Below are positions 944-34,169 of a stretch of 34,169 nucleotides of DNA, one piece after another. The notes under the pieces are model-generated. The model saw only the letters and a list, made by a program, of their open reading frames with translations, was not told the origin of the DNA and made no database searches. The position numbers were made by a program, and so were the translations under genes. The DNA lies in IMG/VR virus record IMGVR_UViG_3300033153_012687, positions 1 to 34,169 of that record; one strand, written 5' to 3'. Numbering within the stretch: the stretch's first letter is position 1; every line of letters starts with the position of its first letter. The stretch comes from a virus.

Positions 944-1228
944 TTATTCCATTACAGCAAACAGCTTATCCTCACCAATCAACATACAATCGTTACCCAC
1001 ATCAACTCCACGGAATGGACCGAAATAGACAATATCACCCTCTTTTACAGACATTTGGCTCCTAGTACCATCTGGTGATAGCTTACCTGGGCCTACAGCT
1101 AGGACTTCTCCGGTTTGACCTTTTTGCTTCACAGTTCCTGGTACAATGATACCAGCAGGAGTCTTTCCACTTTCCTGTATCTTCTTAATTAAAACTTTGT
1201 CGTGCAATGGACGCATATTACTTTTCAT
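944..1228 (-). CDS. Phage-encoded GroES-like co-chaperonin
   Basis: A 94-residue GroES (Cpn10) homologue, close to the usual 95-97. It has the family start MRPLHDKVLIKK (residues 5-16), a mobile loop ESGKTPAGIIVPGT (19-32) whose IIV should contact GroEL, then GEVLAVGPGK (40-49) and VKEGDIVYFG (61-70). The end GEDKLFAVME is also typical. I chose the ATG at 1228 rather than the upstream one at 1273, because AAGGG lies before it and it follows the previous stop by one base. No GroEL partner is present here, so it would work with host GroEL, as T4 gp31 does, presumably to fold the capsid protein. Its place just upstream of the portal and capsid genes fits that role. Confidence 0.93.
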   Translation of the reverse strand: MKSNMRPLHDKVLIKKIQESGKTPAGIIVPGTVKQKGQTGEVLAVGPGKLSPDGTRSQMSVKEGDIVYFGPFRGVDVGNDCMLIGEDKLFAVME

Positions 1229-1229
1229 T

Positions 1230-1895
1230 TTAACCCTTTCTTTCCATCTCATATTTAAGCCTGTAAACCACACTCGACGACACCTTAAGTTTCCTAGAAA
1301 TATCCATTGGGCGCAACCCCAACTTCAACAAGTTAAGTATTTCGTCTCTATACTTTTTAGACCTAACAATCTTCCACTTACAATTATCCGCACAAAAGTC
1401 TTTAGTGTTATCTATTCTACTTAAACGTCCATACTTAGGAAGTTTCCCCATATCTTTATAGAACCTCATAAAGTCAATTCTCCACTCATCGCATACCTTG
1501 ATACCTATCCATCCTAAACTCTCCCAGCGATAATCTGTTTTGCAATAACATCCGTTAATCATTATTCGCCACTGACTATAGATAGGAGATCCATACAATC
1601 CTTTGCCCTCTTTAGTACGCCCCCATGTATTCTTATGCCATACAAATTTAATATAGCATTCCTTACACTGCTTAGTTTTATCTCCTAAAACCCTTACACA
1701 TGACAAACTTCTTTTTTTTCCGCAATCACACTTACATAAATAATGATAATATCCCGTAACTACCCCATTGAAACCAAGAATCGTCCAATGATTGAACTTT
1801 TCACCTATCTTACTCTTAAGAAATGCAACGCGAGTCTTTTTCGATTCCTGTGGAGGATTTGCTTTACTGTCAAATTCTTTGCATTTATCACACAT
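1230..1895 (-). CDS. Homing-endonuclease-like protein (zinc motif, HNH/AP2-like core, C-terminal HTH)
   Basis: A 221-residue protein. Residues 30-40 (IGEKFNHWTIL) and the Cys cluster CKCDCG (54-59) with CKEC (77-80) are followed by YSQWRIMINGCY (106-117), WIGIKVCDEW (129-138), F-x-DMG (145-150) and LSRIDN..NCKW (159-174). This pattern is known from phage HNH/AP2-type homing endonucleases, whose usual core is 'GRGI-VC-W...LDRIDN...NCRW'. The C-terminus (190-217, GLRPMDISRKLKVSSSVVYRLK) looks like a helix-turn-helix that reads the target. The start abuts the upstream TAG and has GAAGGG before it. It sits between small phage genes, as free-standing mobile endonucleases often do. Activity is not assured: some HNH positions differ from the family consensus. 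Confidence 0.72.
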   Translation of the reverse strand: MCDKCKEFDSKANPPQESKKTRVAFLKSKIGEKFNHWTILGFNGVVTGYYHYLCKCDCGKKRSLSCVRVLGDKTKQCKECYIKFVWHKNTWGRTKEGKGLYGSPIYSQWRIMINGCYCKTDYRWESLGWIGIKVCDEWRIDFMRFYKDMGKLPKYGRLSRIDNTKDFCADNCKWKIVRSKKYRDEILNLLKLGLRPMDISRKLKVSSSVVYRLKYEMERKG

Positions 1896-3219: not shown

Positions 3220-3263
3220 TATTTTTCCTTCTTTTGTAAGAACTTTTGCTTTAAATTTTTCAT
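3219..3263 (-). CDS. 14-codon mini reading frame, duplicate of an internal segment of the 2745-3026 gene
   Basis: ATG at 3263, 14 codons (MKNLKQKFLQKKEK), stop overlapping the next start as TAATG. The first 11 residues equal residues 14-24 of the protein at 2745-3026, and the DNA matches over 35 bases with one difference. It may be a translated coupling peptide, or simply the scar of a partial duplication. Expression is not shown. Confidence 0.3.
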   Translation of the reverse strand: MKNLKQKFLQKKEK

Positions 3264-4142: not shown

Positions 4143-5507
4143 TTAATACTGAGGTGTGTCATCTCTAAAGAACCTAGGCAACCCAGCCTGGGCCCCATAC
4201 CTTGCCTCGTGATAATTCTTATCTATGTCCTGTGAACTTAATCCATCTCTTGTTTTAGGCAATGATATACATAAATATCTCATAGCATCTGCAAAATGTG
4301 ACGACCAATCGTGAAGCGGCTGCGCTTTATAAACTCGTTTCTTCACATCGTATTCTTGCCTATAGTTTTCAAGAGCTTTTATGAGTGGCTTACACTCAAC
4401 TTCATCAATCCAAATCTTACTGAATGCACTTCTTACCGCCTCGATCCCATCAGGTATAGCAATATTATCCGCTGTGATAAAATTAATACCCAACTGCCTA
4501 GCCTTTTCAATACGAGTAATCCCAGAACCAAACTCCATAACTTTTATGTCATGTGGAGCGATATGTTTCCCAAGGAGAAACGGCTTGTTCTTGATCACCT
4601 TCACATAATGCTCAAGCCCCTCCTTGGCGTTCTCATAACAATCTATAATTCTTACGGTCTGCCCTATCACCTGAAAGAATATGATTGCTGTGCTGTCGCG
4701 AACGCCAATATCCCAGGCCGTATGGACTTGAAACCCAGACTCCCACGGCACAGCACCTATTTGTCCTTTAACTCGCATACGATCGATATATTTGGTATAA
4801 AATGAACCCTCGATTCCAAGCGAAAAACTACAATAATATTCTTGCTGTATTAAGCAGTCTGACAGCTCACCTGATTGTCGCTCGCGCTCTATTGCCTCAA
4901 GAGGAATATGGTTTGTGTCTTCAACTGTTAACTTGGAACAAAACCATTCATCAGATCTCTGCGCTATTTGGTAGAGCTCCCAAAGATGATTTTTACCCCG
5001 AGGTGTCGAAATAAACAAGGCCCACCCCTGATTTGCCGTCAGGATCGGCCTAACGAAGGAATAAGCACGTGGATCACTTAACGCGAATTCCGAAAAAATA
5101 ATTCCTTTTGGATTTGTTCCGACTAAAGCGTTGTCGTAATTGTCAGATCCGATTATCTGAAAAACTGATCCATTAATGAGCCTAATGCGCATCATTTGCT
5201 CATTTCTAGACTCTATTAACTCCTCTGGAAGATAATCAAGTATCCTGAATCCGTCGTTATCAATCGCATCCCACAGAATACGCCTTCCGCCAGAAAATGT
5301 TGGGAAGCAGTAATACACAGTTTTAACTTCTTTAATAAGTTCTCTAATACATAGATTGTACGCCGTAACATCTTTCCCGGCGCGGCGAGGCCATATTGCC
5401 AGTACCCGCTTGTATCCTTTGTTTTCTATAGCGTCAAATATGCAATGCTGATAATCTCTAGGCTTAAACTTATTTAAATGTATCTTGGTTTCTACCTTTA
5501 ACTGCAT
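4143..5507 (-). CDS. terL: Terminase large subunit (DNA-packaging ATPase and nuclease)
   Basis: A 454-residue TerL that pumps DNA through the portal and cuts concatemers. The N-terminal ATPase has a deviant Walker A, WPRRAGKD (39-46), a Walker B GIIFSE with catalytic Glu140 (135-140), and a coupling motif FISTPRG (165-171). The C-terminal RNase H-like nuclease shows WDIG with Asp266, a central PHD (Asp320) and HFADAMRY with Asp407 (404-411). The length is normal for this class. The start at 5507 has GGGGA about 9 bases before it and overlaps the upstream gene by 38 bases. Downstream lie GroES and the portal in the same direction. The subfamily (pac or cos type) cannot be decided by eye. Confidence 0.96.
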   Translation of the reverse strand: MQLKVETKIHLNKFKPRDYQHCIFDAIENKGYKRVLAIWPRRAGKDVTAYNLCIRELIKEVKTVYYCFPTFSGGRRILWDAIDNDGFRILDYLPEELIESRNEQMMRIRLINGSVFQIIGSDNYDNALVGTNPKGIIFSEFALSDPRAYSFVRPILTANQGWALFISTPRGKNHLWELYQIAQRSDEWFCSKLTVEDTNHIPLEAIERERQSGELSDCLIQQEYYCSFSLGIEGSFYTKYIDRMRVKGQIGAVPWESGFQVHTAWDIGVRDSTAIIFFQVIGQTVRIIDCYENAKEGLEHYVKVIKNKPFLLGKHIAPHDIKVMEFGSGITRIEKARQLGINFITADNIAIPDGIEAVRSAFSKIWIDEVECKPLIKALENYRQEYDVKKRVYKAQPLHDWSSHFADAMRYLCISLPKTRDGLSSQDIDKNYHEARYGAQAGLPRFFRDDTPQY

Positions 5508-6986: not shown

Positions 6987-7373
6987 TCACAATTTGGTTA
7001 TTAAGATTTCGGTCCGTGGTTCGTGGCCGTAAATCTTTTTAGCGGTTAGAGATGATATTACACAAGGTTTATCATATATGACACCTTTGCAGATTTTTTG
7101 GGCAAAGGCAATAAGATCTCTAAGAAGTGGTCGGCCTTTATGTATAGTATTGGCACGATTCCTTCTTTGAGTTCCTCTTTTAATGGGCATTATAAATAAT
7201 AATTGCATATCGATGGGAAATGTGATCTTTTGTTGGCCTTCGGCTTGGCCATCCAGTTGTATTTTGAAGAATGTTTTGGATTCTTTCTGGCTGCTCCACA
7301 TTTTGTAATGATCGTCGGTAGTCTTGCTGGATACTGGAGCTCCCTTGAGTGTGTAGCGTAGATTTGAAATCAT
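6987..7373 (-). CDS. RusA-family Holliday junction resolvase homologue, apparently lacking two catalytic aspartates
   Basis: A 128-residue protein with AAGGAGG before its ATG. The fold pattern of RusA is present: N-terminal YTLKGAPVSSKTT (7-19), a central strand ITFPIDMQLLFIMP (50-63), then HKGRPLLRDLIAFAQKICKGVIYDKPCVISSLTAKKIY (78-115) and a last strand EPRTEILITKL. In RusA the loop reads 'kPDlDNl.K...Da..G..y.DD..I..l...K'. Here the first two Asp positions are Leu83 and Arg85, while Asp101 and Lys112/113 remain. Phage RusA proteins resolve branched DNA before packaging, fitting its place next to TerS. It may be inactive or use a changed metal site. Confidence 0.7.
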   Translation of the reverse strand: MISNLRYTLKGAPVSSKTTDDHYKMWSSQKESKTFFKIQLDGQAEGQQKITFPIDMQLLFIMPIKRGTQRRNRANTIHKGRPLLRDLIAFAQKICKGVIYDKPCVISSLTAKKIYGHEPRTEILITKL

Positions 7374-8804: not shown

Positions 8805-8833
8805 TTGACACTTCTGTACATTTCCTGTACAAT
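8805..8833 (+). promoter_or_regulatory. Early rightward promoter with GTACA-N5-TGTAC operator
   Basis: TTGACA (8805-8810), 17 bases, TACAAT (8828-8833): a near-consensus sigma-70 promoter about 40 bases before the first early gene. The inverted repeat GTACA-TTTCC-TGTAC (8816-8830) lies between the boxes and overlaps the -10, where a bound dimer would block polymerase. The same operator, base for base, is in the promoter at 21855-21883. A second inverted pair, CTTCTGT (8811-8817) and ACAGAAG (8838-8844), is present only here. Confidence 0.87.
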
Positions 8834-8874
8834 TATAACAGAAGTACGATCTAACCCGTAAGACGGAGATACTT

Positions 8875-9066
8875 ATGTTTACTCGAACTGAACTCTTACT
8901 GATGTGGAATAAAACTTGCATTAACTGCAAAAAAAATAGCCACGAGCATGGAGACCTATTCTGCTCAGATAATTGCAGCGCCCATTATAGGCAGCGTTGC
9001 TCTAAAAATAAACGTCATCTTATCGCTATATATGATCTAGAACTCGAACAAAAGGACAAAGCATAA
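8875..9066 (+). CDS. Small zinc-finger protein, first gene of the early operon
   Basis: A 63-residue protein; ATG at 8875 with GGAGA 5-6 bases upstream. CINCKK (16-21) and FCSDNCSAHYRQRC (29-42) hold a likely four-cysteine zinc site of treble-clef type, similar in layout to the 78-residue protein at 22121-22357 (CLNCNKEF...YCKWSCY), the second gene of the other operon with the same operator. The C-terminus is charged. Phage early zinc proteins often act on host transcription or nucleases, but no function can be assigned here. Confidence 0.72.
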   Translation: MFTRTELLLMWNKTCINCKKNSHEHGDLFCSDNCSAHYRQRCSKNKRHLIAIYDLELEQKDKA

Positions 9067-9410
9067 TGGAACACAATTATAAAGAAATGTTCGGTGCCGC
9101 ACTTGAAGACTCGTACTGGGAACTACTCGATTATATTGAGGTTGCCCTAGGTAAAAAAGGTCTCGGACCAGAAGAGCATTTTAACGGCAGAGAAATTAAT
9201 GCGTTACCAGAAGAAGCAAGAATACGGGTGTGGACACGACTTGGTAATTTCTACAAAATATGGTCAGAACATAAGAAGTATATTAAAGAAGCATATCCAA
9301 CAATAAATAAACTCCTAGAGCTAACTAAAGAAGTTGACAGCGTATTATCGACCGACTGCAATTGTGGCAGATGCGATCATCTAAACCCAACAGAAAAGGA
9401 CAAAGTATAA
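9066..9410 (+). CDS. Hypothetical protein, 114 residues, Cys-rich end
   Basis: The ATG shares a base with the preceding stop (TAATG), with AAAGGACAAAG upstream. Mostly helical and acidic (MEHNYKEMFGAALEDSYWELLDYIEVALGKK). The C-terminal DCNCGRCDH (97-105) is a small cysteine cluster. No family recognised. Its 3' junction carries the same 22-base sequence as its 5' junction (one difference). Confidence 0.72.
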   Translation: MEHNYKEMFGAALEDSYWELLDYIEVALGKKGLGPEEHFNGREINALPEEARIRVWTRLGNFYKIWSEHKKYIKEAYPTINKLLELTKEVDSVLSTDCNCGRCDHLNPTEKDKV

Positions 9411-9667
9411 TGGAAATCAAATCGCTCGCCTTAAAACTAGAAAAAGAAATCAACTCTAAAATGAAAGTGTTCAACGAAATGGGCGCCAAAGCCAAAGAGC
9501 TACAGCGAGAACTACACGAACAACACTTAGCTATGGCAAAACTCTTCGATGAACTTAAACCCGTAGAGTATATCGTTAGGCACCACAACCCTAATATGTG
9601 CGGACTGTTTGATGAACTCCTTAAACTATTAGATAAGAACTGTGAGAAGACAACCAAGGAGAAATAG
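9410..9667 (+). CDS. Coiled-coil protein, 85 residues
   Basis: Start at 9410, sharing a base with the preceding stop as TAATG and with AAAAGGA about 9 bases upstream. It is almost entirely helix with heptads (LALKLEKEINSKMKVFNEMGAKAKELQRELHEQHLAMAKLFDELK, residues 6-50), and a short C-terminal LFDELLKLLDKNCEK. No family recognised. Confidence 0.7.
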   Translation: MEIKSLALKLEKEINSKMKVFNEMGAKAKELQRELHEQHLAMAKLFDELKPVEYIVRHHNPNMCGLFDELLKLLDKNCEKTTKEK

Positions 9668-10039
9668 GTGGAATTTGAAAATATCTATATCCACAAAGAT
9701 AAACTCACAAAAGATCGCATAGACGAGAGGGTGGGCACTGTAAATTTCGAAGTTGTCTTTAAGGGTGCCATTAAATTAAATAACATCTGCATGGTAAAAA
9801 AAGATGCGCCAGAGCCCTTGTGCCGCAAAACGTTTCCAGTTTGGTTTGATCTTCACGAAATGGAGAGCTGCGGGGACTTCGCATATGAAATAATCTGTAA
9901 CGATACAAAATGGTTAATCATAATTGCGTTGCTAGAAGCGCTTAAAAAGCTAAATTTATACCCATGGGGCGACGTTGATAAAGCAATTAAAATAACCAAA
10001 CGTGCCTTTTTAGATTATGTACAAAAGGAAGATGCATGA
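9668..10039 (+). CDS. Hypothetical protein, 123 residues (GTG start)
   Basis: GTG at 9668 directly after the upstream TAG, with AAGGAG 7 bases before it. The N-terminal half is beta-rich (NIYIHKDKL...VGTVNFEVVFKGAIKLNNICMV), followed by a PLCRKTFPVWFDL stretch and C-terminal helices (WLIIIALLEALKKLNLYPWGDVDKAIKITKRAFLDYVQ). It overlaps the next gene by 4 bases (ATGA). No family recognised. Confidence 0.72.
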   Translation: MEFENIYIHKDKLTKDRIDERVGTVNFEVVFKGAIKLNNICMVKKDAPEPLCRKTFPVWFDLHEMESCGDFAYEIICNDTKWLIIIALLEALKKLNLYPWGDVDKAIKITKRAFLDYVQKEDA

Positions 10040-10413
10040 AAACACCCAATTATAAACAAGTATACAAACCAAAAGCACTTTCTTACCTGTTTGATAAAGA
10101 CGAAGCAACTTCATTTGGCGTCTGCATGAATGGCCTATATGAACTATTTGAAAAATATAACTGGCAGGGCTTCGTAGCGATAGAAGATGGCTATAAAAAC
10201 GCCAATTATGTCACTAATATAGATCTGGTGAAAAATACAAACCGTCAAGACGGACGCCTTTTAACTGTGATTATTCTTTATTTAGACACAATAACCAAAA
10301 AGTACGATGTCAACATCGAGATCATGGTTGATGAACCCGATAAAGATTTCGATAAGCCATTGTATATCAACACGGACGGCTGCTCAAAACTCAACCCCAA
10401 AAACTACAATTAA
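10036..10413 (+). CDS. Hypothetical protein, 125 residues
   Basis: Starts within the upstream stop (ATGA), so translation is probably coupled. Mixed alpha/beta sequence: SYLFDKDEATSFGVCMNGLYELFEKYNWQGFVAIEDG (16-52), then a strand pair LLTVIILYLDTITKKYDVNIEIMVD (75-99). No motif recognised. It lies in the middle of the early operon. Confidence 0.72.
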   Translation: MKTPNYKQVYKPKALSYLFDKDEATSFGVCMNGLYELFEKYNWQGFVAIEDGYKNANYVTNIDLVKNTNRQDGRLLTVIILYLDTITKKYDVNIEIMVDEPDKDFDKPLYINTDGCSKLNPKNYN

Positions 10414-10423
10414 AGGGAAACCA

Positions 10424-10738
10424 ATGAAACATAAAATGAGCGCTAAAACAGAGAACGTCCTCAAAATATTTAGCATGTGGAATGATATGCTTCTAGGACT
10501 TGATAAAATAATGCCGCAAAATAGAATTTTTCTAGTTCTCGATGAGTTAGACAAGCATTTAAATATTGAGGCTGACGATGGAAACGCCTTCGAAGCTTTT
10601 ATATATGCCTATAAAAGCGACATAGAGGAAAAACTTGTTGAAGCTGTTGTAAAAGAAGAGTATTTAATGGCAGGTCAATATGTTGCTATAATTAGGCACA
10701 TACAGCGCGAACATTCTTTTGGCCATTCAACACTATAA
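10424..10738 (+). CDS. Hypothetical helical protein, 104 residues
   Basis: Start at the ATG at 10424, preceded by AAAGGGAAACCA. The same box, base for base, precedes the ERF gene at 10864, so the two starts share a duplicated ribosome site. A longer upstream frame only overlaps the previous gene out of frame and is ignored. The sequence is helical with many acidic residues (LDKIMPQNRIFLVLDELDKHLNIEADDGNAFEAFIYAYKSDIEEKLVE). No family recognised. Confidence 0.7.
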   Translation: MKHKMSAKTENVLKIFSMWNDMLLGLDKIMPQNRIFLVLDELDKHLNIEADDGNAFEAFIYAYKSDIEEKLVEAVVKEEYLMAGQYVAIIRHIQREHSFGHSTL

Positions 10739-10863: not shown

Positions 10864-11634
10864 ATGGAAATAAATGACATCTCAAAAATACTAGAAACCG
10901 TAATCAAACTCTGCGATAGAAAAATAAGCGAACAAATCTCAACGCTAATCAACGATAACACAAAAGGCAATGATCCGTATCAGTCTGAGAACATTAAAGA
11001 GCTAGCGACAGCATTTGCTAAGGCACAGGGCGAATTCAAGTCCATAGAGTACAACAGAGAGAACCCATACTTCAAAACACAATACGTTGACCTTTATGCT
11101 ATCCTTAAAGGCGTCAGACCTGCTCTCACTAAAAACGGAATCTCCTTCTTACAATACACAGAACTTTCTCGAGACGGCAAAGGACCCACAATATTACACA
11201 CCAGGCTTCTACACTCAAGCGGCCAATGGGTAGAAACAAGATCAAGAATAATCCCACCAAAAAACGATCAACAATCTTATGGCTCTACACTAACATACCA
11301 AAAACGATATGCCGCAGCTTCTCTACTAGGTATAGCCGCATCAGATGATTCATCTGATGATGATGGCGAAGTAGCCATGATAGAAACAAGGCAAGCCTTT
11401 GTAAAGGGACCATCAACAAAATATAACCCCAGAGAACAGTCATACCAGACCATAACTAAAGAACAACTAGAAGAACTAGAGTATGAACTTGCCCAATACC
11501 CTGACATCGGTGAAGAAGTTATAGACAAATTGAAACTACAAAGCCTCGCCGACCTCCCTAGAAGCAAATTCCAAATATCCATAACACGTATCAGAGAAAT
11601 AAAAGAGCTGCGCAATGAAGGATCCAATAAATAA
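10864..11634 (+). CDS. erf: ERF-family single-strand annealing recombinase
   Basis: A 256-residue protein of the ERF superfamily (P22 Erf), which anneals complementary single strands in phage recombination and replication. The domain spans about 44-170: IKELATAFAKAQGEFKSI (44-61), NPYFKTQYVDLYAILKGVRPALTKNGISFLQ (67-97), LLHSSGQWVETRS (115-127), then QQSYGSTLTYQKRYAAASLLGIA (136-158) and the acidic run DDSSDDDGE (161-169), which is the family's usual 'eDdDG' end. The C-terminal part is a helical linker and tail. AAAGGGAAACCA precedes the ATG. It would cooperate with the RusA-like protein encoded leftward at 6987-7373. No SSB or exonuclease is visible here. Confidence 0.93.
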   Translation: MEINDISKILETVIKLCDRKISEQISTLINDNTKGNDPYQSENIKELATAFAKAQGEFKSIEYNRENPYFKTQYVDLYAILKGVRPALTKNGISFLQYTELSRDGKGPTILHTRLLHSSGQWVETRSRIIPPKNDQQSYGSTLTYQKRYAAASLLGIAASDDSSDDDGEVAMIETRQAFVKGPSTKYNPREQSYQTITKEQLEELEYELAQYPDIGEEVIDKLKLQSLADLPRSKFQISITRIREIKELRNEGSNK

Positions 11635-13907: not shown

Positions 13908-14627
13908 CTAACAAACTAACTCACCACTAAAATAACTATAATAAGCCGTAGCTGGCATGTCGACAGTCTTAGTTCCACCCGTAGATACAACAGATATGTG
14001 CACAGTATCAGTTGCATCCATATCCGTTAAAACGCTAAACGGGAGATACAAATAACTATTAATACCAAGATTAGAAGCACTGTCAGAAAAACCCAGAATC
14101 GTTCTATTAGATGTAACTATATTTATATACCCCAATGTTGCACCACCAGCAAAATCTTCTAGGCACACCTGTCCTGTAAATTTATATCGGCCCGTAATAG
14201 GAGCCGTAAAAGTTCCCGAAGTTACATAATCACTTCCTTGATCAAAAACCTGTACCTCAAACGGAATTGTAAATGGTGTAGCATCCCCTGTCTGATTTGT
14301 ACGCGCAGTATTATTATAAGCCATAAAGCACGGCTGAAGCGCCATATTTCTAAATCCATCTGAGTCTAATATGAATGTGTCCGTGCCTCCGTTATTTATG
14401 ACAAAACTACCTGTTCCATTAGGCTTAAAAGTAATATCGCCAGCTGCAGCAGAATCTATAGTTAGTTGGGCTGTTCCAGAAGGATTAGCTCCAGCAGACG
14501 TGGATACAACAACTTTTAATTTATCGCCATCAGTATTATCCAAACCAATAGCAACAGAGCCTCCAGAATCGATTTCTTGATATGCGTATACATCTGTACT
14601 TAAATCTTTAAATCCTTGCTTTGCCAT
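13908..14627 (-). CDS. C1q-like tail/receptor-binding protein, copy 3
   Basis: 239 residues. N-terminal MAKQGFKDLSTDVYAYQEI tag, a fibre module with QLTIDSAAAGDITFKPNGTG and VINNGGTDTF (about 52-86), then a C1q/TNF-like jelly roll (about 97-239). Typical C1q stretches are FMAYNNTARTNQTGDATPFTIPFEVQVFD, SGTFTAPITGRYKFTGQVCL and the end AYYSYFSGEL. C1q domains trimerise and bind ligands at fibre tips. It has the same length as its two upstream neighbours (720 bp each), 9 bases apart; the ribosome site GAGGTTTATT is identical to that of copy 2. Confidence 0.78.
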   Translation of the reverse strand: MAKQGFKDLSTDVYAYQEIDSGGSVAIGLDNTDGDKLKVVVSTSAGANPSGTAQLTIDSAAAGDITFKPNGTGSFVINNGGTDTFILDSDGFRNMALQPCFMAYNNTARTNQTGDATPFTIPFEVQVFDQGSDYVTSGTFTAPITGRYKFTGQVCLEDFAGGATLGYINIVTSNRTILGFSDSASNLGINSYLYLPFSVLTDMDATDTVHISVVSTGGTKTVDMPATAYYSYFSGELVC

Positions 14628-14636
14628 AATAAACCT

Positions 14637-15356
14637 CTAACAAATTAACGCACCACTAAAATAAGTGTAATAAGCGGTAGCCGGCATATCTACTGTTTTA
14701 GTTCCACTATTAAGATCTGTTCTAACTCTTACTGTATCAGCTGCATCCAATGGAACTTGATAGATAAACCTCAAAAAAATATAACCACTCAAACTTGTCA
14801 TAGATACGTCTTTATATTCTCCTGGATCAATTCCACCTGTCCAATAAATTAATGTTCTTGGGTCAATAACACCCCCCCCAAAATCAGATAAACATACTTG
14901 TCCTTGAAAGGAGTAAATTCCATCCATAGGCGCTGTAAAAATCCCCGAACCAGCCGCATAATCTGACCCTTGATCAAAAACTACCACTTCGAATATAACA
15001 AAAAAAGCTGACGCATCACCAGTGATATTGCTTCTAAGCGTATTGTTATACGCAAAAAATGCAGGGTTAAGACCCATTGTCATTTCGCCAGTTGATCTCA
15101 TTTCAAAGGTATCTGATGATCCATTATTTATTATGACACTGCCTGTACCATCTGGAGTTAAAGTTATATTTCCATTAGCTGACGGATCTATTGTTAACTG
15201 TTCAGATCCAGAGGGATTTGCACCAGCAGAGCTGGACGTTACAATCTTAAATTTATCGCCATCAGAATTATCCAATCCAACAGCTACTGATACACCTGAT
15301 GATACCTCTTGATATATATATGGATCAGTATCGTACTTAAATCCTTGCTTTGCCAT
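14637..15356 (-). CDS. C1q-like tail/receptor-binding protein, copy 2
   Basis: 239 residues, same architecture as the genes on either side: MAKQGFKYDTDPYIYQEV tag, fibre module (QLTIDPSANGNITLTPDGTG, VIINNGSSDTF), C1q-like domain with FFAYNNTLRSNITGDASAFFVIFEVVVFDQ, FTAPMDGIYSFQGQVCL and TAYYTYFSGALIC. It resembles copy 3 most in its first 90 and last 20 residues; the middle of the C1q domain (ligand-facing loops such as IDPRTLIYWTGGIDPGEYKD) differs strongly. This pattern fits duplication followed by divergence of binding surfaces. Confidence 0.78.
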   Translation of the reverse strand: MAKQGFKYDTDPYIYQEVSSGVSVAVGLDNSDGDKFKIVTSSSAGANPSGSEQLTIDPSANGNITLTPDGTGSVIINNGSSDTFEMRSTGEMTMGLNPAFFAYNNTLRSNITGDASAFFVIFEVVVFDQGSDYAAGSGIFTAPMDGIYSFQGQVCLSDFGGGVIDPRTLIYWTGGIDPGEYKDVSMTSLSGYIFLRFIYQVPLDAADTVRVRTDLNSGTKTVDMPATAYYTYFSGALIC

Positions 15357-15365
15357 AATAAACCT

Positions 15366-16085
15366 CTAACAAATAAGGGCACCACCAAAATTACTATATC
15401 CTTGAGTTGCAGTTATAGCTGCAAACTGTGTACCACCTGTAGCCATAATCTGAGCATACGCCGTATCAGCTGCGTCCATTGGAACAATCACACTCATTAA
15501 AAATATATATACCCCAAACCTTCCTATATCACCTATTGATTTACCTTGCCCTATAATAGTTCTATCAGAAGTAACAAGTGTAATAAAACCTTGTGTCCAC
15601 GCACCACCGCTACTAAGGGAAACTTGCACTTCAAACCTATAGTTGCCTGTTTTTGGCGCTGTAAATACTCCTGTTGTATGGTCATAATCAGAGTTCTGAT
15701 CTACTAATTCGACCTCAAATATCATATCGTAATAAGTTCCATCCCCAGTAGCTCCAAGTCTTGCCGTAGCATTTGAAGCAAAAAAAGCAGACTGTAGTGG
15801 CAATAGCCCTTCACCATCATTGGTCATTTTAAATGTGTCATCAGATCCATTATTAACTATAAAATTACCAGTTCCGTTAGGCATGAAAGTTACATCGCCA
15901 TTAGCCGCTGGATCTACAACAACCTCAGCGCTTCCAGTAATCGCAGCTCCGCCAGTATCCAAAACATACATCTTCCACTTATCGTTATCTCCTGTATCTA
16001 TCCCTATAGCAGCTGACGCACCAGAAGTAATTTCCTGGTACAAAAAAGGATCAGTAGCTAGATCTTTGAATCCTTGCTTTCCCAT
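15366..16085 (-). CDS. C1q-like tail/receptor-binding protein, copy 1
   Basis: 239 residues, first of the three in transcription order. MGKQGFKDLATDPFLYQEI tag, fibre module (VVVDPAANGDVTFMPNGTGN, IVNNGSDDTF), then the C1q-like domain (FFASNATARLGATGDGTYYDMIFEVELVDQ, GVFTAPKTGNYRFEVQVSL, YSNFGGALIC). It is the most diverged copy in the C1q half. GGAG precedes the ATG and it follows the adhesin-like fibre gene by 8 bases. Virion location is inferred from context and domain type. Confidence 0.78.
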   Translation of the reverse strand: MGKQGFKDLATDPFLYQEITSGASAAIGIDTGDNDKWKMYVLDTGGAAITGSAEVVVDPAANGDVTFMPNGTGNFIVNNGSDDTFKMTNDGEGLLPLQSAFFASNATARLGATGDGTYYDMIFEVELVDQNSDYDHTTGVFTAPKTGNYRFEVQVSLSSGGAWTQGFITLVTSDRTIIGQGKSIGDIGRFGVYIFLMSVIVPMDAADTAYAQIMATGGTQFAAITATQGYSNFGGALIC

Positions 16086-21854: not shown

Positions 21855-21883
21855 TTGACAATTATGTACATTTCCTGTACAAT
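21855..21883 (+). promoter_or_regulatory. Rightward promoter with GTACA-N5-TGTAC operator, upstream of the RHH gene
   Basis: TTGACA (21855-21860), 17 bases, TACAAT (21878-21883). The operator GTACA-TTTCC-TGTAC at 21866-21880 is identical, in sequence and in placement relative to both boxes, to that of the early promoter at 8805-8833. Identity extends from one base left of the operator to five bases right of it. The first gene downstream encodes an RHH protein, so autoregulation is likely. Confidence 0.87.
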
Positions 21884-21915
21884 TACACAATATACAAACA
21901 AAAATAAGGGACAGT

Positions 21916-22161
21916 ATGGATAAAATAGATAATCAGACAGATATAGTTGAGAACAAAGAAGAAGAACAAGTAGAGAAAATCATGCGCCAAAGATTGGCTG
22001 TTGATTTGCCGATACATATACATGAAGAAGTAAAACTTGTAGCAAGACAACACAATTGTACAATTACAAGATGGGTACTAAAGACAATAATTCAAAAACT
22101 AAAAATAGAGAGACTTTATAATGAAAAAGCTAATAGAAAAAAGATGCCTAAATTGCAATAA
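21916..22161 (+). CDS. Ribbon-helix-helix regulator (Arc/CopG type), candidate repressor of both rightward operons
   Basis: 81 residues; ATG at 21916 with AAGGGA 6-7 bases upstream. An acidic N-terminal arm (1-20) precedes an RHH pattern at 25-62: strand RLAVDLP, helix IHIHEEVKLVARQHN, turn CTI, helix TRWVLKTIIQKLKIE. RHH dimers insert a beta strand pair into the major groove of palindromic operators. Its own promoter carries a palindrome that is repeated at the early promoter. P22-like phages also use RHH repressors (Arc, Mnt). The binding link is inference, but specific and testable. It overlaps the next gene by 41 bases. Confidence 0.8.
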   Translation: MDKIDNQTDIVENKEEEQVEKIMRQRLAVDLPIHIHEEVKLVARQHNCTITRWVLKTIIQKLKIERLYNEKANRKKMPKLQ

Positions 22162-22357
22162 AGAGTTTGAGGTAGATGAGAAGAGAAAGGATGCGAAGTA
22201 CTGCAAGTGGAGTTGCTATAGTGAAGATATAAGAAAAATAAGACAAAAAACAGGCTCTCTAAAGTTAAGAGCTAAAAGGTTAAAGTACTTTGCTTATACT
22301 CTATATTTATTAGCAATAGCAGCAACAATTACAATAGCAATCCAATATTTTACTTAA
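22121..22357 (+). CDS. Zinc-ribbon protein with C-terminal membrane segment
   Basis: 78 residues, starting inside the RHH gene in another frame. CLNCNKEFEVDEKRKDAKYCKWSC (9-32) is a treble-clef-like four-Cys site, similar to that in the early protein at 8875-9066. A basic stretch (RQKTGSLKLRAKRLKYF) leads to one membrane helix (AYTLYLLAIAATITIAIQYF, 58-77). The 3' end overlaps the convergent ejection-protein gene by 8 bases. The ribosome site is weak, so translation is probably coupled to the RHH gene. Function unknown. Confidence 0.7.
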   Translation: MKKLIEKRCLNCNKEFEVDEKRKDAKYCKWSCYSEDIRKIRQKTGSLKLRAKRLKYFAYTLYLLAIAATITIAIQYFT

Positions 22358-25300
22358 TCTCTTCTCTTAACTTTTGATAAAGATTAGAAAATTTCTTAGT
22401 AGTCACACCACGCGAATATAGATATTTCCTCACAGCGTTAATTTCTTCCCTATCCTTAGTGATTAATGCCATCTTGAAACGATCCCTTATTTGATTTATC
22501 GAATATTCATTTCTTACTAATGAAACACGAGATTTAATCGTTTTCTCAGGAATCCCTCCAATACGCATTAACTCTATAATCGAATAGAGTTTTTCTTTTC
22601 TTCTAACGCTATCCTTTTCTGATAATGCTGCTTCGATAAAAGGAATAGCACTATGCGGATTAATAGCCTTAGAAACTGGGTATGCTCCAAACATAGACCA
22701 TAAATAAGGTCCCCAACCTTTATCAGATATAGTTCTAAGACTAAATGGCAAAGCAGACTTAATCAAATGTTTAAGCCTAGATGGTATTTGTTTAAGAGTA
22801 TTAGTTTCACCACCCCATGCAAGTTTTTGACCATACTTATACCCTGGCTCTGCTACCCACACTTGGCCTCCACCCTTTGGAGTACCCCCTAAATATTGCT
22901 CTACTAACATCTGAATTAATGGAGCAGCTTTACTAAAAAGTGCTTGCCCCAAATCTGTAAAATATCTGCCAATTTCTAAAACCTGTTTACCAAAATGACC
23001 AGAAAGTTTTTCGCCTTTTGCATTTCTCCCAGGGTTAAATATAATATCTGTTCCAGGTAATCGTACATCCGCATCTGGCATTGGAAACTTATAAGACATT
23101 GGACCTTCAATAGTCAAAGCCTTAATAGCTCTATCTATATAAAATCTAAGACCGCTAATTTTTTTATCTTTTTTATCTGTTTGTACCCATCCTGCATTGA
23201 AAAATTTAAATGCTCCATGTATCGCAATAAAAGCAATACCATATCTTTTCATAAACTGTCTTCCTAGTTTTCCTTTAGTACCAGGAGCAAATACATCAAG
23301 AAACTGCCTAATTGTAGACATAGTCCAATCTGGGTAACCAATAAGTCGCCTTAACACTTTCGAGTTCCTGCTTGAGTTCCAAAAATTCATATATTCAAGA
23401 TTTTGACCGCCTGCTTGATTATTAACAACGTCAGCAATATCTTGCTTAATATGTTTAACTTCTTCAGGAGTAAACTTTTTTCCTGCATTTATCTGCTTAG
23501 TTATCTCAGAGTTTACATAATGCTGGTAAGTAGCAATCTTCATTCTAGGATGAAACTCTTCAAACAAGTAATTCGCTCCTTTAGACATTAAAGCTAAACC
23601 CTTATTGGCTCCTTTAGATGCAAGATTATCCGGCAAAAGTTCAGCGCCTTTTTTCATCGCATCTACGCCTTTACCAATCAAACCAAAACTCTTCTTGATA
23701 CCTTTTGCATTACGATAGTCTACCTTTAAACCATGTTCAATTGCATCACTCATAACAGCAACTTCATTCTTTAATATTCCTGATTTCTTATACCAAAAAG
23801 GGTTTTTAAGTGCTAAGCCGGAACCTACTGCTGATTCAAATAAAGAAACATAGTGAAATGGAGACAATTCAACACGCGTATATCTTATTAAGTTTGTAGC
23901 TTTATCGTAAGCATTCCATGCTCTTACAGAGCCACCCTTATGCCTATATGTTGTATCAGCAAAAACTCCTTGTAATGCACTATGAAAATCTGGATGTACC
24001 AATGCAGGCGCATCAGAAGGTTTCCACATCTTATTAAGAACTTTACCTTCTACTGTTGGTTCAAATCTATAAGATTTTAAAAACAAATTATCTATAGGTA
24101 TATAACCCTCACTCTTAGCTTCTCCATAAGCTTTTCCATCAAGAGAATTGACTACAAAAGGAATAGGATTATCTTTTTGTGTGTTTTGTATCTCCTCTAA
24201 CAAATCAAGATTCGCTAAAGTTTTAATAATTTGTTCATTATATGTATGTACAAAATCAACAATTGATTTATACCTAGGTTTTAATCCAGCTTCCTTAAAA
24301 GCAGTTAGAAAATTCAAAAACTCTTTAGGTTTTGCAAATGGAACCTCTGTTCCAAACTTAGCAGCAACCTTATCAAACGCCTTATTAAATTCTTTATTAG
24401 TATACTCATACATACCTGGCATATATGCGTCTCTAAGAATATCTCTAGGATTAATATTTTTTGTTGCTGGATGCTCATTATGCTGTCTTGCCATACTAGC
24501 AAAGAACTCTTTTATCGGGCCATCTGTAAGCTGTTTGGCTGCTTCTGGAAGTCGCTTAGATAACTCCTTAAAAGTATCTCCCTTGACGAACGGGTTACCT
24601 GTCTTTTGCTTATAGTAAATCATTTCTTCAAGATTTTTAGCCGTAAACTTTTGCTCCTTTTGAGCTAACTCAACAGCTTCATTAACCTTAGTCTGTATTT
24701 CATAAACTTTTCTATTTCTTTTCCCAAGATTATCTCTAACAATTTGCTTAAGTCTTTTCCTCTGTGTTTCAACACCAAGCTTTGGAAAGGTTTTCTTTAT
24801 TTTTTGTTGAATCTTTTCAGGTAACATTTTAACAAACGTATCTGCTGTTGAACGAGTACCAGGCTTTTGTAATTCTCCAAAAAATGATTTTGTTTTACCA
24901 TATGCTCCTATAGTCCCTTTTATAGCACCATATGTAAGTACATTATCTAGAATGTGTTGAGCTGTCGGCCTTTTGCCCTCTAACAATCCTTGTGCTCCAG
25001 TCATACCAGTTAACTCTAATCCTGCTGTTGCTACCGCTTTTCCTGGTTTAGTATTTAAGAGCTTATTAAACTTAGGAATTTTCTTTAAAAATGGTAAAAA
25101 CTTTGCCATACCTGCGGTTGCTAACCCTACCACCGCACCTTTGCCTGTTTCCTTAGAAATTCTTCCAATGCTATTTAAATAATCACCAAAAGATAAATCT
25201 CCACCCTTATCTACATATTCGCTCCAATACTCTTGAGATGCTTGCTTAATCATTGCGGGGAGAGCCATAGCTCCCATTACAGCTCCAGAAGTCGCTCCTG

Positions 25301-25715
25301 CTGCAGTACCAACAACTGGCACAGTAGAACCTAATAACGCTCCAGCTGCTCCACCCATTTTTCCGCCTGCCCAAAATCCTGGAATATCATATATCAATTC
25401 ACCAGCCAAAGCTGCTACATGTTCTAACCAGTTTTCATCTGAAGGTACATCTTCTGGCCTATGAAACATTAATAAACTAGCAACTCCATGAGACTTGCCT
25501 CTTGAAAATGCATCGGCCAGTGTACGACTTGCAGTTTCACTTGAGTTTTCTTTTGCTAATTGACGAAACCTATTAACTTTTTCCCCGTCAACTTCCTGTG
25601 CAACCTGACTAACTCCATCTTTATTTTTTATGTCATTTGCTTCTGCAATTTGACGGAATCTGTTATTCGGTTCTTTAGCATTTGCTTCTGCAATTTGACG
25701 AAATCTGTTTGGCAT
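22350..25715 (-). CDS. Large internal virion / DNA-ejection-type protein, 1121 residues
   Basis: The largest gene here. The N-terminus has three short repeats, NRFRQIAEAN (3-12), NRFRQIAEAN (18-27) and NRFRQLAKEN (48-57). A Gly/Ala-rich hydrophobic region follows (104-157, including MGGAAGALLGSTVPVVGTAAGATSGAVMGAM), suited to crossing membranes. The rest is long, mainly helical and basic, with no enzyme motif that I can see. Size, position next to two smaller Gln/Ala-rich proteins and the DNA-stabilisation gene, and the membrane-active segment fit the large ejection protein of podoviruses (the role of P22 gp16/gp20 or T7 gp15/gp16). Assigned by context and composition. Confidence 0.7.
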   Translation of the reverse strand: MPNRFRQIAEANAKEPNNRFRQIAEANDIKNKDGVSQVAQEVDGEKVNRFRQLAKENSSETASRTLADAFSRGKSHGVASLLMFHRPEDVPSDENWLEHVAALAGELIYDIPGFWAGGKMGGAAGALLGSTVPVVGTAAGATSGAVMGAMALPAMIKQASQEYWSEYVDKGGDLSFGDYLNSIGRISKETGKGAVVGLATAGMAKFLPFLKKIPKFNKLLNTKPGKAVATAGLELTGMTGAQGLLEGKRPTAQHILDNVLTYGAIKGTIGAYGKTKSFFGELQKPGTRSTADTFVKMLPEKIQQKIKKTFPKLGVETQRKRLKQIVRDNLGKRNRKVYEIQTKVNEAVELAQKEQKFTAKNLEEMIYYKQKTGNPFVKGDTFKELSKRLPEAAKQLTDGPIKEFFASMARQHNEHPATKNINPRDILRDAYMPGMYEYTNKEFNKAFDKVAAKFGTEVPFAKPKEFLNFLTAFKEAGLKPRYKSIVDFVHTYNEQIIKTLANLDLLEEIQNTQKDNPIPFVVNSLDGKAYGEAKSEGYIPIDNLFLKSYRFEPTVEGKVLNKMWKPSDAPALVHPDFHSALQGVFADTTYRHKGGSVRAWNAYDKATNLIRYTRVELSPFHYVSLFESAVGSGLALKNPFWYKKSGILKNEVAVMSDAIEHGLKVDYRNAKGIKKSFGLIGKGVDAMKKGAELLPDNLASKGANKGLALMSKGANYLFEEFHPRMKIATYQHYVNSEITKQINAGKKFTPEEVKHIKQDIADVVNNQAGGQNLEYMNFWNSSRNSKVLRRLIGYPDWTMSTIRQFLDVFAPGTKGKLGRQFMKRYGIAFIAIHGAFKFFNAGWVQTDKKDKKISGLRFYIDRAIKALTIEGPMSYKFPMPDADVRLPGTDIIFNPGRNAKGEKLSGHFGKQVLEIGRYFTDLGQALFSKAAPLIQMLVEQYLGGTPKGGGQVWVAEPGYKYGQKLAWGGETNTLKQIPSRLKHLIKSALPFSLRTISDKGWGPYLWSMFGAYPVSKAINPHSAIPFIEAALSEKDSVRRKEKLYSIIELMRIGGIPEKTIKSRVSLVRNEYSINQIRDRFKMALITKDREEINAVRKYLYSRGVTTKKFSNLYQKLREEIK

Positions 25716-25717
25716 TT

Positions 25718-26425
25718 TTATACCTCAAAGCCAAAACTTTTGGCCATTTGTTCAGCTTTTTTATAGCTATTACCAGACTTTTTTAAGAAATAATTTATTA
25801 ATTCATCTGTTAAATTATTATTAACAAATGCATCTGCCATTCCTTCGCCCAGTCCTTCACTTATAAATTTTTGCTTTGCCTCTTGGGATGTTATAAGGCC
25901 TCTCTTAACCCTATTTAATGTTTCTAATTTAAGTTTTCGCATTTCAACAATCCCAACCTTACCTGCTACTTTACTTATTGCAACACCAACTTTAGCCCAA
26001 TCTTTCTCCATGTTACCACCTCGCAGATCGAGGCTTGCCTTCGCTATATTATTTCTTTCCCGTTTAATAATATTTTCTTCTATACGTATTTTAGTATTAG
26101 TGTCAGCTTGGTCCATTCGTCTATTAGCTTGTGCTATCTTTATATTAGATATCTCTATTCTTCTCCGAGCATCAACTTTCTTTTGAGGACCTTCCATTAC
26201 ATCTTTAAGAATAGGCTGTAATGTTCTTTCATCAAATTGAGATAATGCTTGTGCTATTTGAGGTGGAAACAAAGCTTCTAAACCCTTTAACTTTCTAGAC
26301 TGAGTTTGCCGCTGAGATAATTCACCAAGTTTGTGTTGTGCTAACATCTGTAAACTTTGACTTATACCCTGAGAAAGACCTGTTCCTAATCTTTCGCCAA
26401 CACCGGGTTCTCTAATAATTGCCAT
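25718..26425 (-). CDS. Probable internal virion / ejection protein, 235 residues
   Basis: The start overlaps the preceding stop by one base. It opens with MAIIREPGVGERLGTGLSQGISQSLQMLAQHKLGELSQRQTQ, then long charged helices (DARRRIEISNIKIAQANRRMDQADTNTKIRIEENIIKRERNNIAKASL), and a helical end. Rich in Gln, Lys, Arg and Leu, without enzyme motifs. Proteins of this start ('...GxGERLGxGLxQGLxxLAxxK...') sit beside large ejection proteins in many phages, as I recall. Role inferred from context. Confidence 0.68.
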   Translation of the reverse strand: MAIIREPGVGERLGTGLSQGISQSLQMLAQHKLGELSQRQTQSRKLKGLEALFPPQIAQALSQFDERTLQPILKDVMEGPQKKVDARRRIEISNIKIAQANRRMDQADTNTKIRIEENIIKRERNNIAKASLDLRGGNMEKDWAKVGVAISKVAGKVGIVEMRKLKLETLNRVKRGLITSQEAKQKFISEGLGEGMADAFVNNNLTDELINYFLKKSGNSYKKAEQMAKSFGFEV

Positions 26426-27234
26426 TAGGTTCCCCTTTGAAGAATATATTTAATTAATTCAAGCACTGTTGCCATTGTAGCACTTGGCGCTCCACCCTGT
26501 GCCGCAGCAGTTGCTATATTTCCTCCACTACTAAGCAACTGTTGTGACCATTCTGGTCGTTGTGATCCAAATTGATCCGCAGGTTGTTGTTTGTATGCTT
26601 CTAGTTGCTGTGGTCCAGCTTGCATTAATTCAGTTCCTCTTGCACCACCTTGCCATTCTGGTTGTTGTAATCCAAGTTGATCCATAGGTTGTTGTTGTTG
26701 CGGTTCCCCTTGCTGCGGTAATCCCAGTTGTCCCATAGGTTGTTGCTGACCTTGATTTCCTCTACTTAATATATATGCCATTAAAGCCATTGGTCCTCCT
26801 TGCAGTGCTCCCATACCAGCTAGTTCAGCAATTCCTGGTGATCTTTCACGATAATCGGTTCCAAATTGTGGCGCCATCCCCATACCAAGAAGATTTTGAT
26901 CTTGTCCTCGTTGTTGAAGGCCATATTGACTCTGAAGAGCTGCCAAATTTTCTTCCAGACCTGCACCAGCTTGTCCTAATACACTCCTAAATGAACCACT
27001 TCTTGTTGGGCTACCACCCATACTAGTAAATCTTTCTGCAAGAGAAGGAACGGTTTGTTGATGAAATTTGGTTCTAGCAGCTTTTTCTATTGGTGCAAAT
27101 CCATCCTGACTTTCTCTTAAGCGCGACATTGCCATTTGCCTGGCTTCATCTAAATCAGCTCGTTGCCCAGGTGTAACTGTAGGATACTGTTCTCTTCTTC
27201 CCGGAGTTCCCCTAAAAAAATCTGTAACTGCCAT
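26425..27234 (-). CDS. Gln-rich probable internal virion protein, 269 residues
   Basis: ATG at 27234 with AAAGGA upstream. N-terminal TDFFRGTPGRREQYPTVTPGQRADLDEA, then FAPIEKAARTKFHQQTVPSLAERFTSMGG (46-74) and SFRSVLGQAGAGLEENLAALQSQYGLQQ (81-108), a pattern I associate with a small phage structural protein found next to the large ejection protein. Residues 162-233 are Gln/Pro repeats (QQPMGQLGLPQQ, QQPMDQLGLQQPEW, QQPADQFGSQRPEW). An Ala-rich end follows. Likely packaged in the capsid and ejected with DNA; inference. Confidence 0.7.
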   Translation of the reverse strand: MAVTDFFRGTPGRREQYPTVTPGQRADLDEARQMAMSRLRESQDGFAPIEKAARTKFHQQTVPSLAERFTSMGGSPTRSGSFRSVLGQAGAGLEENLAALQSQYGLQQRGQDQNLLGMGMAPQFGTDYRERSPGIAELAGMGALQGGPMALMAYILSRGNQGQQQPMGQLGLPQQGEPQQQQPMDQLGLQQPEWQGGARGTELMQAGPQQLEAYKQQPADQFGSQRPEWSQQLLSSGGNIATAAAQGGAPSATMATVLELIKYILQRGT

Positions 27235-33611: not shown

Positions 33612-34169
33612 TTAAGCAGCTGGAGTACAGCGTAGATTGATAATCCACAAATCATTAGTAATTCGCGGGACTTCCGCAAATTTATAACCAACAGAAGCAT
33701 TAAGGGCTAATGGACCATCATATATTGGTGGTCTATAAATAAACGAAGCGCTATATCCATCCTGCTCTATACAAGCATAAGCTTCCATACCAACACAGAA
33801 TATATTGAAAATGTCATCGTTCAATAAAGACGCATTTGCAGTTACTGATCCAATTGAAGAAACCAAGAATCTAAGGTTTCCAACTGAACCCCACTCAGAA
33901 CGCAAAGCATTCATCGGTGATGGATATTCATTTTTATGCATAAAACCGTCAACACGATCAACTTCTCCTGTCAACTTTGTTGAACACAGAGCGAAGTACG
34001 CATCACGAATTGGAGCTGTTCCAAATTTCAAATCTCCTTCAATACTGTCCATAATTGTATAGGCATTTGAATCTAAAAGAGCACGAACAGTTTCGTCAAT
34101 ATCTACACGGTTTATCTCTGTAGGATTATCCGCATTTACACCGGCAACACAGTTTACAAACCCTGCTCC
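33612..34169 (-). CDS. Major capsid protein, N4-gp56 family (5' part outside the window)
   Basis: The frame is open to the window edge, so the visible 185 residues are the C-terminal part; an internal Met at 34052 is not the true start. IDETVRALLDSNAY...GTAPIRDAYFALCSTKLTGEVDRVDGFMHKNEYPSPMNALRSEWGSVGNLRFLVSS, then NIFCVGMEAYACIEQDGYSASFIYRPPIYDGPLALNASVGYKFAEVPRITNDLWIINLRC. The 'PIRDAY...E.GSVGN.RF' and 'DPL......VG.K......I.ND.WI..' blocks are typical of the N4-gp56 family (HK97 fold). Full members run to about 350-400 residues. It leads the head operon and is the likely client of the phage GroES. Confidence 0.87.
   Translation of the reverse strand, partial: GAGFVNCVAGVNADNPTEINRVDIDETVRALLDSNAYTIMDSIEGDLKFGTAPIRDAYFALCSTKLTGEVDRVDGFMHKNEYPSPMNALRSEWGSVGNLRFLVSSIGSVTANASLLNDDIFNIFCVGMEAYACIEQDGYSASFIYRPPIYDGPLALNASVGYKFAEVPRITNDLWIINLRCTPAA

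Follow-up and report, generated by a model that had tools for sequence, protein, structure and literature searches.

A ribbon-helix-helix protein gene and an early recombination operon of a tailed phage have a common promoter operator: a candidate circuit for early shut-off

Two promoters of the tailed phage considered here carry the same palindrome, GTACATTTCCTGTAC, at their -10 hexamers. One of them precedes an early operon with a recombination gene, the other a small operon whose first gene encodes a protein of the ribbon-helix-helix (RHH) type, and this arrangement raises the question of whether the RHH protein reads the palindrome and, if so, whether it controls both operons. By the window we mean the whole stretch of DNA that was analysed, a 34-kb virus record of IMG/VR (34,169 nucleotides), the features of which are collected in Table 1. 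Those of the small early genes between 9066 and 10738 that were scanned gave no family match.

Table 1. Coordinates of the window features discussed in the text
Feature	Position	Strand	Remarks
Large terminase subunit	4143-5507		54-72% identical to those of the 65 contigs found
RusA	6987-7373		
Early promoter	8805-8833	+	-35 TTGACA 8805-8810, -10 TACAAT 8828-8833, spacer 17 bases
Operator copy 1, GTACATTTCCTGTAC	8816-8830		Overlaps the -10; identical stretch 8815-8835
First early gene, 63 aa, zinc-finger-like	8875-9066	+	DUF2116 treble clef, E 0.002, below the curated cut-off
Other small early genes (9066, 9362, 9668, 10036, 10307)	9066-10738	+	
Erf single-strand annealing protein, recombination gene of the early operon	10864-11634	+	Pfam ERF 3.6e-20, PHROG 2324 2e-40
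RHH-operon promoter	21855-21883	+	-35 TTGACA 21855-21860, -10 TACAAT 21878-21883, spacer 17 bases
Operator copy 2, GTACATTTCCTGTAC	21866-21880		Identical stretch 21865-21885
RHH protein, 81 aa, proposed repressor	21916-22161	+	Predicted DNA-binding strand QRLAVD, residues 25-30
Second RHH-operon gene, 78 aa	22121-22357	+	C-x2-C...YC-x3-C zinc-finger-like part and one C-terminal hydrophobic segment
Conserved virion protein, 146 aa	33612-34052		Found in 558 viral contigs

Two promoters and their common operator

The preliminary description of this DNA gave both promoters as TTGACA, 17 bases and TACAAT with GTACA-TTTCC-TGTAC at an equal offset in each, and the letters and coordinates are correct for the promoters (8805-8833 and 21855-21883) as well as for the palindromes (8816-8830 and 21866-21880). 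The identity between the two copies is more extensive than first described, covering 21 consecutive bases, TGTACATTTCCTGTACAATTA, at 8815-8835 and 21865-21885, and the promoters as a whole agree in 28 of 31 positions, with all three mismatches falling within the 5 bases that separate the -35 hexamer from the operator. In a sequence of the length and composition of the window, about 0.001 exact 20-base pairs would be expected. A pattern scan of the window found GTACAN5TGTAC in exact form at the two promoters and nowhere else, and with two mismatches allowed the number of sites rises to 13, which is the chance number. The two operator promoters are also the only sites in the window that match the consensus TTGACA/TATAAT in at least 11 of 12 positions at a spacing of 16-18, the chance expectation for such 11/12 sigma70-like sites in the window being 1.75. 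When the window is taken alone, the palindromicity of the RHH promoter is unexceptional (p 0.12).

It had been argued that the likeness of the two promoters reflects selection and not recent duplication. Selection is indeed compatible with the data, but so is duplication, because the 21 identical bases include the non-palindromic core TTTCC together with the bases directly 3' of the -10 hexamer, and a common origin of the two copies by promoter duplication would leave such identity.

The RHH protein and its locus in related phages

Judged by family profiles and predicted fold, which agree with each other and with the earlier assignment of the first gene of the second operon, the product of the 21916 gene clearly belongs, as far as the family is concerned, to the RHH proteins. 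In a profile search against solved structures, an alignment of 27 members matched ParD (2an7, 5.6e-5), ParG (1p94, 1.3e-4) and Arc (1b28, 1.3e-3), 22 of the 27 members matched the PHROG 'Arc-like repressor', and the Pfam families matched by the members were ParD, CopG_antitoxin, HicB and NikA-like. The 21916-22161 protein by itself gives weak family matches (E 0.02-0.05). Its model (pLDDT 87) has helices at 33-45 and 50-75 following QRLAVDLP, the predicted strand QRLAVD being unpaired in the monomer, and the model resembles AtaR, TacA, PutA, Arc and CopG with Z scores of 5-7, where a Z under 8 is weak if taken alone. Positions 12-50 of the profile align on residues 11-49 of Arc, which places the R-x-D of the strand at Arc residues 9, 11 and 13, i.e., at DNA contacts of Arc; the corresponding residues of the window protein are R26, A28 and D30.

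About 55 relatives of the window phage were read in pieces. An RHH gene occupies the equivalent location in 44 of the 57 phage contigs read; the RHH profile is matched 26 times in the window plus 27 other contigs and 48 times in the 57 contigs, and further loci, partly from phages already counted, have an RHH gene in 56 of 69 cases. In most relatives the gene lies on the strand opposite to the virion genes, between the block that spans 22350-27234 in the window and the tail-fibre genes. The RHH proteins diverge fast, those of the relatives being 16-40% identical to the window protein; a search for close relatives by means of back-translated patterns returned none, and the family is visible through synteny and profiles only. 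At the RHH location of six loci (L268, L273, L275, L276, L277 and L287) there is a protein of about 150-165 aa with an apparently HNH-endonuclease-like start and an RHH profile score, possibly an HNH-RHH fusion.

Behind the RHH gene lies, in 33 of 74 cases, a small gene whose product contains a strongly hydrophobic stretch. The combination of such a stretch with a zinc-finger-like part is found 3' of the RHH gene in the window and in G008, G009, G012, G056, L288, L305 and L325. The second gene of the window operon (22121-22357) matches no toxin family, and many relatives have a small membrane protein in that place.

Operators of the RHH genes and their link to the early promoters

A search of IMG/VR with the strict promoter-operator pattern returned three matches. 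The first, L004, belongs to a distant relative (phage G002) and reads TTGACA-N5-GTACAAAATTTGTAC-AAT before an RHH gene which is in the equivalent location and divergent from the same tail-fibre gene; G002 is the only relative with the full pattern. The second, L003 (G001, 9059-9087, minus strand), reads TTGACA-N5-GTACAACTAATGTAC-AAT and stands directly before a RecT-like operon; the phage is unrelated, and a search for an RHH gene like that of the window found none in it. The metagenome from which L003 comes also contains members of the window phage family. The third, L005, is situated only some bases upstream of the start of a gene in what appears to be a T4-like phage and probably arose by chance. 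The single exact GTACAN5TGTAC of G057, within the coding sequence of an apparent capsid gene, is due to chance.

Three more relatives, G004, G005 and G018, have the R-A-D strand of the window protein and carry GTACACATSGTGTAC over the -10, the sites being GTACACATCGTGTAC or GTACACATGGTGTAC, so that a predicted operator covers the -10 of the RHH gene's own promoter in these three phages, in L004 and in the window. The RHH promoters of G009 and G015 contain TGTACA palindromes at a different spacing, and other palindromes lie upstream of the RHH genes of G013 (TTGCACAATTGTGCAA) and G008 (CTACAAATGTAG); the A/T-rich palindromes of G006, G012 and G044 are indistinguishable from what composition gives. 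Overall, palindromes are enriched in RHH promoters relative to the upstream regions of other genes of the same phages (Fisher p about 8e-6, or about 6e-5 with near duplicates removed). A TGTACA-type site is present upstream of 17 of the 34 RHH genes with R-x-D versus 4 of the 38 others (p about 3e-4) and of 4.1% of other genes; the site is thus absent from half of the R-x-D group, and the correlation is exploratory since it was first spotted in part of the data on which it was tested. After clustering the association has p 0.004 at 50% identity and p 0.02 at 45% identity. Because the type of operator correlates with the predicted contact residues, the protein appears tied to the site, and these sequence comparisons support the assignment of the TGTACA-type operator to the RHH gene. 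The RHH operator recurs in L305 (4542-4563) and G015 (108-123) directly 3' of the RHH gene, where it apparently belongs to the promoter of the unit that follows, a second target that differs from the early promoter of the window.

The operator is common to the RHH and early promoters in four phages, and it is a different operator in each. Besides the window these are G008, where CTACAWWTGTAG, of the form CTACA-WW-TGTAG, occurs in both promoters 5 bases after the -35, as in the window, with the two copies oppositely oriented; G022, where a sequence like TATGTTACATNTGTG is common to both promoters and TTACATATGTGTG occurs twice in the early one; and G051, where TCAAG-N4-CTTGA with a different N4 surrounds the -35 in both promoters and the early copy is 41 bases before erf. 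For most relatives no operator common to the two promoters was found, and it is absent from the early regions, as read, of G002 (L004), G004, G005 and G018 despite the GTACA-TGTAC type of site before their RHH genes. An automated test for shared operators in 35 phages reached only moderate significance (Fisher p 0.015), although in the window and in G022 the top rank out of more than 200 places was obtained. This test is a rough one, its placement of the early region being wrong for G051 and probably for others. From the sites as they stand, a minority of phages appears to have a genuine link to the early promoter, and gain or loss of this link seems to come easily. The earlier proposal that the RHH protein also silences the early recombination operon is strengthened by the recurrence of a shared operator in three further phages, and its absence from most relatives restricts how widely the proposal may apply.

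The proposed circuit, its rivals and its known counterparts

The most probable reading, to which we assign a probability of about 0.7, is that the 21916-22161 protein is a phage repressor of both operons that shuts off early transcription by negative feedback. RHH dimers would bind GTACA-N5-TGTAC via antiparallel beta strands, in which R26, A28 and D30 take the positions of Arc 9, 11 and 13, and since the operators overlap the -10 of near-consensus promoters of the host sigma70 type, the bound repressor would block RNA polymerase. Upon infection both promoters would be active simultaneously, the RHH protein would accumulate, and it would then close its own operon together with the early recombination operon, the outcome being an early pulse. 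We infer the binding of the sites, the repression that follows from binding and the purpose of the circuit, i.e., early shut-off and not lysogeny. The suggestion of an autoregulated repressor thus gains from the RHH fold, the palindromes in the gene's own promoter and the correlation between residues and operators, with repression itself as the deduced part.

The main rival is a moron-like or toxin-antitoxin-like cassette, in which the RHH protein would control its own unit only and the early site, left over from a promoter duplication, would count for little in regulation. It owes this rank to the small hydrophobic-segment genes that recur behind the RHH gene, and it also agrees with the RHH unit of most relatives standing alone among blocks of virion genes that run on the other strand, with the numerous antitoxins among the best solved-structure matches, with the early link missing from most relatives and with the non-palindromic core within the 21 shared bases, as expected from duplication. 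We nevertheless regard the cassette as unlikely to be the whole explanation: three more phages share different operators between the same two promoters, duplication does not predict the opposite orientation in G008, and an identical site over the early -10 should be bound regardless of its origin. That another regulator reads the palindrome, either a host repressor or another phage protein such as one of those with a zinc-finger-like part, is quite improbable. The promoter-operator pattern before the RecT operon of the unrelated L003 would fit such a regulator, but operator and RHH gene otherwise travel together, the operator type tracks the RHH contact residues, L004 has the operator and the RHH gene without a zinc-finger-like gene behind it, and the strong divergence of operators between relatives is incompatible with a shared host factor.

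The lowest probability goes to a lysogeny switch, in which the RHH protein would hold the early operon off and thereby maintain a silent carrier state of the phage. Operators common to both -10 hexamers would suit such a switch, as would the tyrosine integrase encoded near erf in G051, which belongs to the four linked phages. However, this is the one integrase among the 31 phages tested, with none in the window or in 29 of the 30 others, and a family search of the window record found neither a tyrosine integrase (PF00589) nor an HTH_3 repressor of the CI/Cro type (PF01381), which makes early feedback shut-off likelier than lysogeny. In addition, the contigs that carry relatives in bacterial MAGs are free ones, in several cases phage-sized, with no visible integration. 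The term two-promoter switch, used in the preliminary description, is therefore too strong, there being no sign of two stable states.

RHH proteins with comparable tasks are known from several systems. Arc of phage P22, which the window protein resembles in fold by profile and model match, acts at promoters overlapped by its operator, its own included; Arc has a single operator between adjacent promoters of the immI region, whereas the window has two operators 13 kb apart, each a lone 15-base palindrome. The plasmid repressors of the CopG, ParG and omega type are likewise short and autoregulating, with ParG and CopG among the profile and fold matches, and omega controls several promoters by reading heptad repeats, but the targets of these proteins are plasmid copy number or partition genes. 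The RHH antitoxins (ParD, AtaR, TacA and KacA) are similar in their autoregulating operons with a small second gene, ParD being the nearest by profile and antitoxins standing high in the fold list; they differ in that no known toxin family was found adjoining the phage RHH gene, whose operon has a variable second gene that in many cases codes for a small membrane or zinc-finger/membrane protein. The experimentally studied viral parallels are SvtR of SIRV1 and AvtR of AFV6 (PMC5569661). Through imperfect inverted repeats SvtR represses the promoter of its own gene and also acts on other promoters of the virus, and at its strongest target, the structural gene gp30, a distance of about 80 bases separates the site from the promoter elements (PMC5569661). 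The window protein resembles SvtR as a small viral RHH protein with sites at its own promoter and at a further viral promoter, repression in the window being read from these sites; it differs in that SvtR works on archaeal promoters, from a distant site and on a structural target, whereas the window sites overlap the -10 and the target would be an early recombination operon.

Since autoregulated viral RHH repressors are already known, a single circuit of this kind is unsurprising, and the proposed window circuit, which is well supported, is ordinary in kind and of use as part of a natural set of repressor-operator variants. The value is in the set: one locus offers dozens of homologues whose predicted contact residues and nearby palindromes vary, with or without a link to the early promoter, so that the rules by which RHH proteins recognise DNA and the rewiring of early regulators become testable. 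A more doubtful idea is that the set is a system of fast-changing specificity, in which contact residues and operator would be peculiar to each phage and the connection to the early promoter would be made and broken repeatedly; the repressor of a resident phage would silence the early genes of any newcomer that has this operator, and this would select for new specificities.

The hosts of these phages may be environmental chlamydiae. The loci concerned are L204, L205 and L333-L346. Among 84,980 species genomes scanned, relatives of the 33612-34052 virion protein were present only on contigs of a Parachlamydiaceae MAG and a Simkaniaceae MAG, and among Chlamydiota genomes 8 of 234 had such relatives, in several cases on free contigs of 35-40 kb. 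The window phage family, with more than 500 contigs, may infect environmental chlamydiae, co-binning being an alternative; the related phages on Chlamydiota-binned contigs have no recognisable RHH gene, and in the literature on tailed phages of chlamydiae no relevant paper was found. The window also encodes a GroES-like co-chaperonin (944-1273, minus strand; Pfam Cpn10 2.9e-20), a gene also present in one other of the loci read (L044). It further contains two exact direct repeats, one around the starts of two adjacent small genes (2954-2978 and 3230-3254) and the other where paralogous 239-aa genes begin (14608-14645 and 15337-15374).
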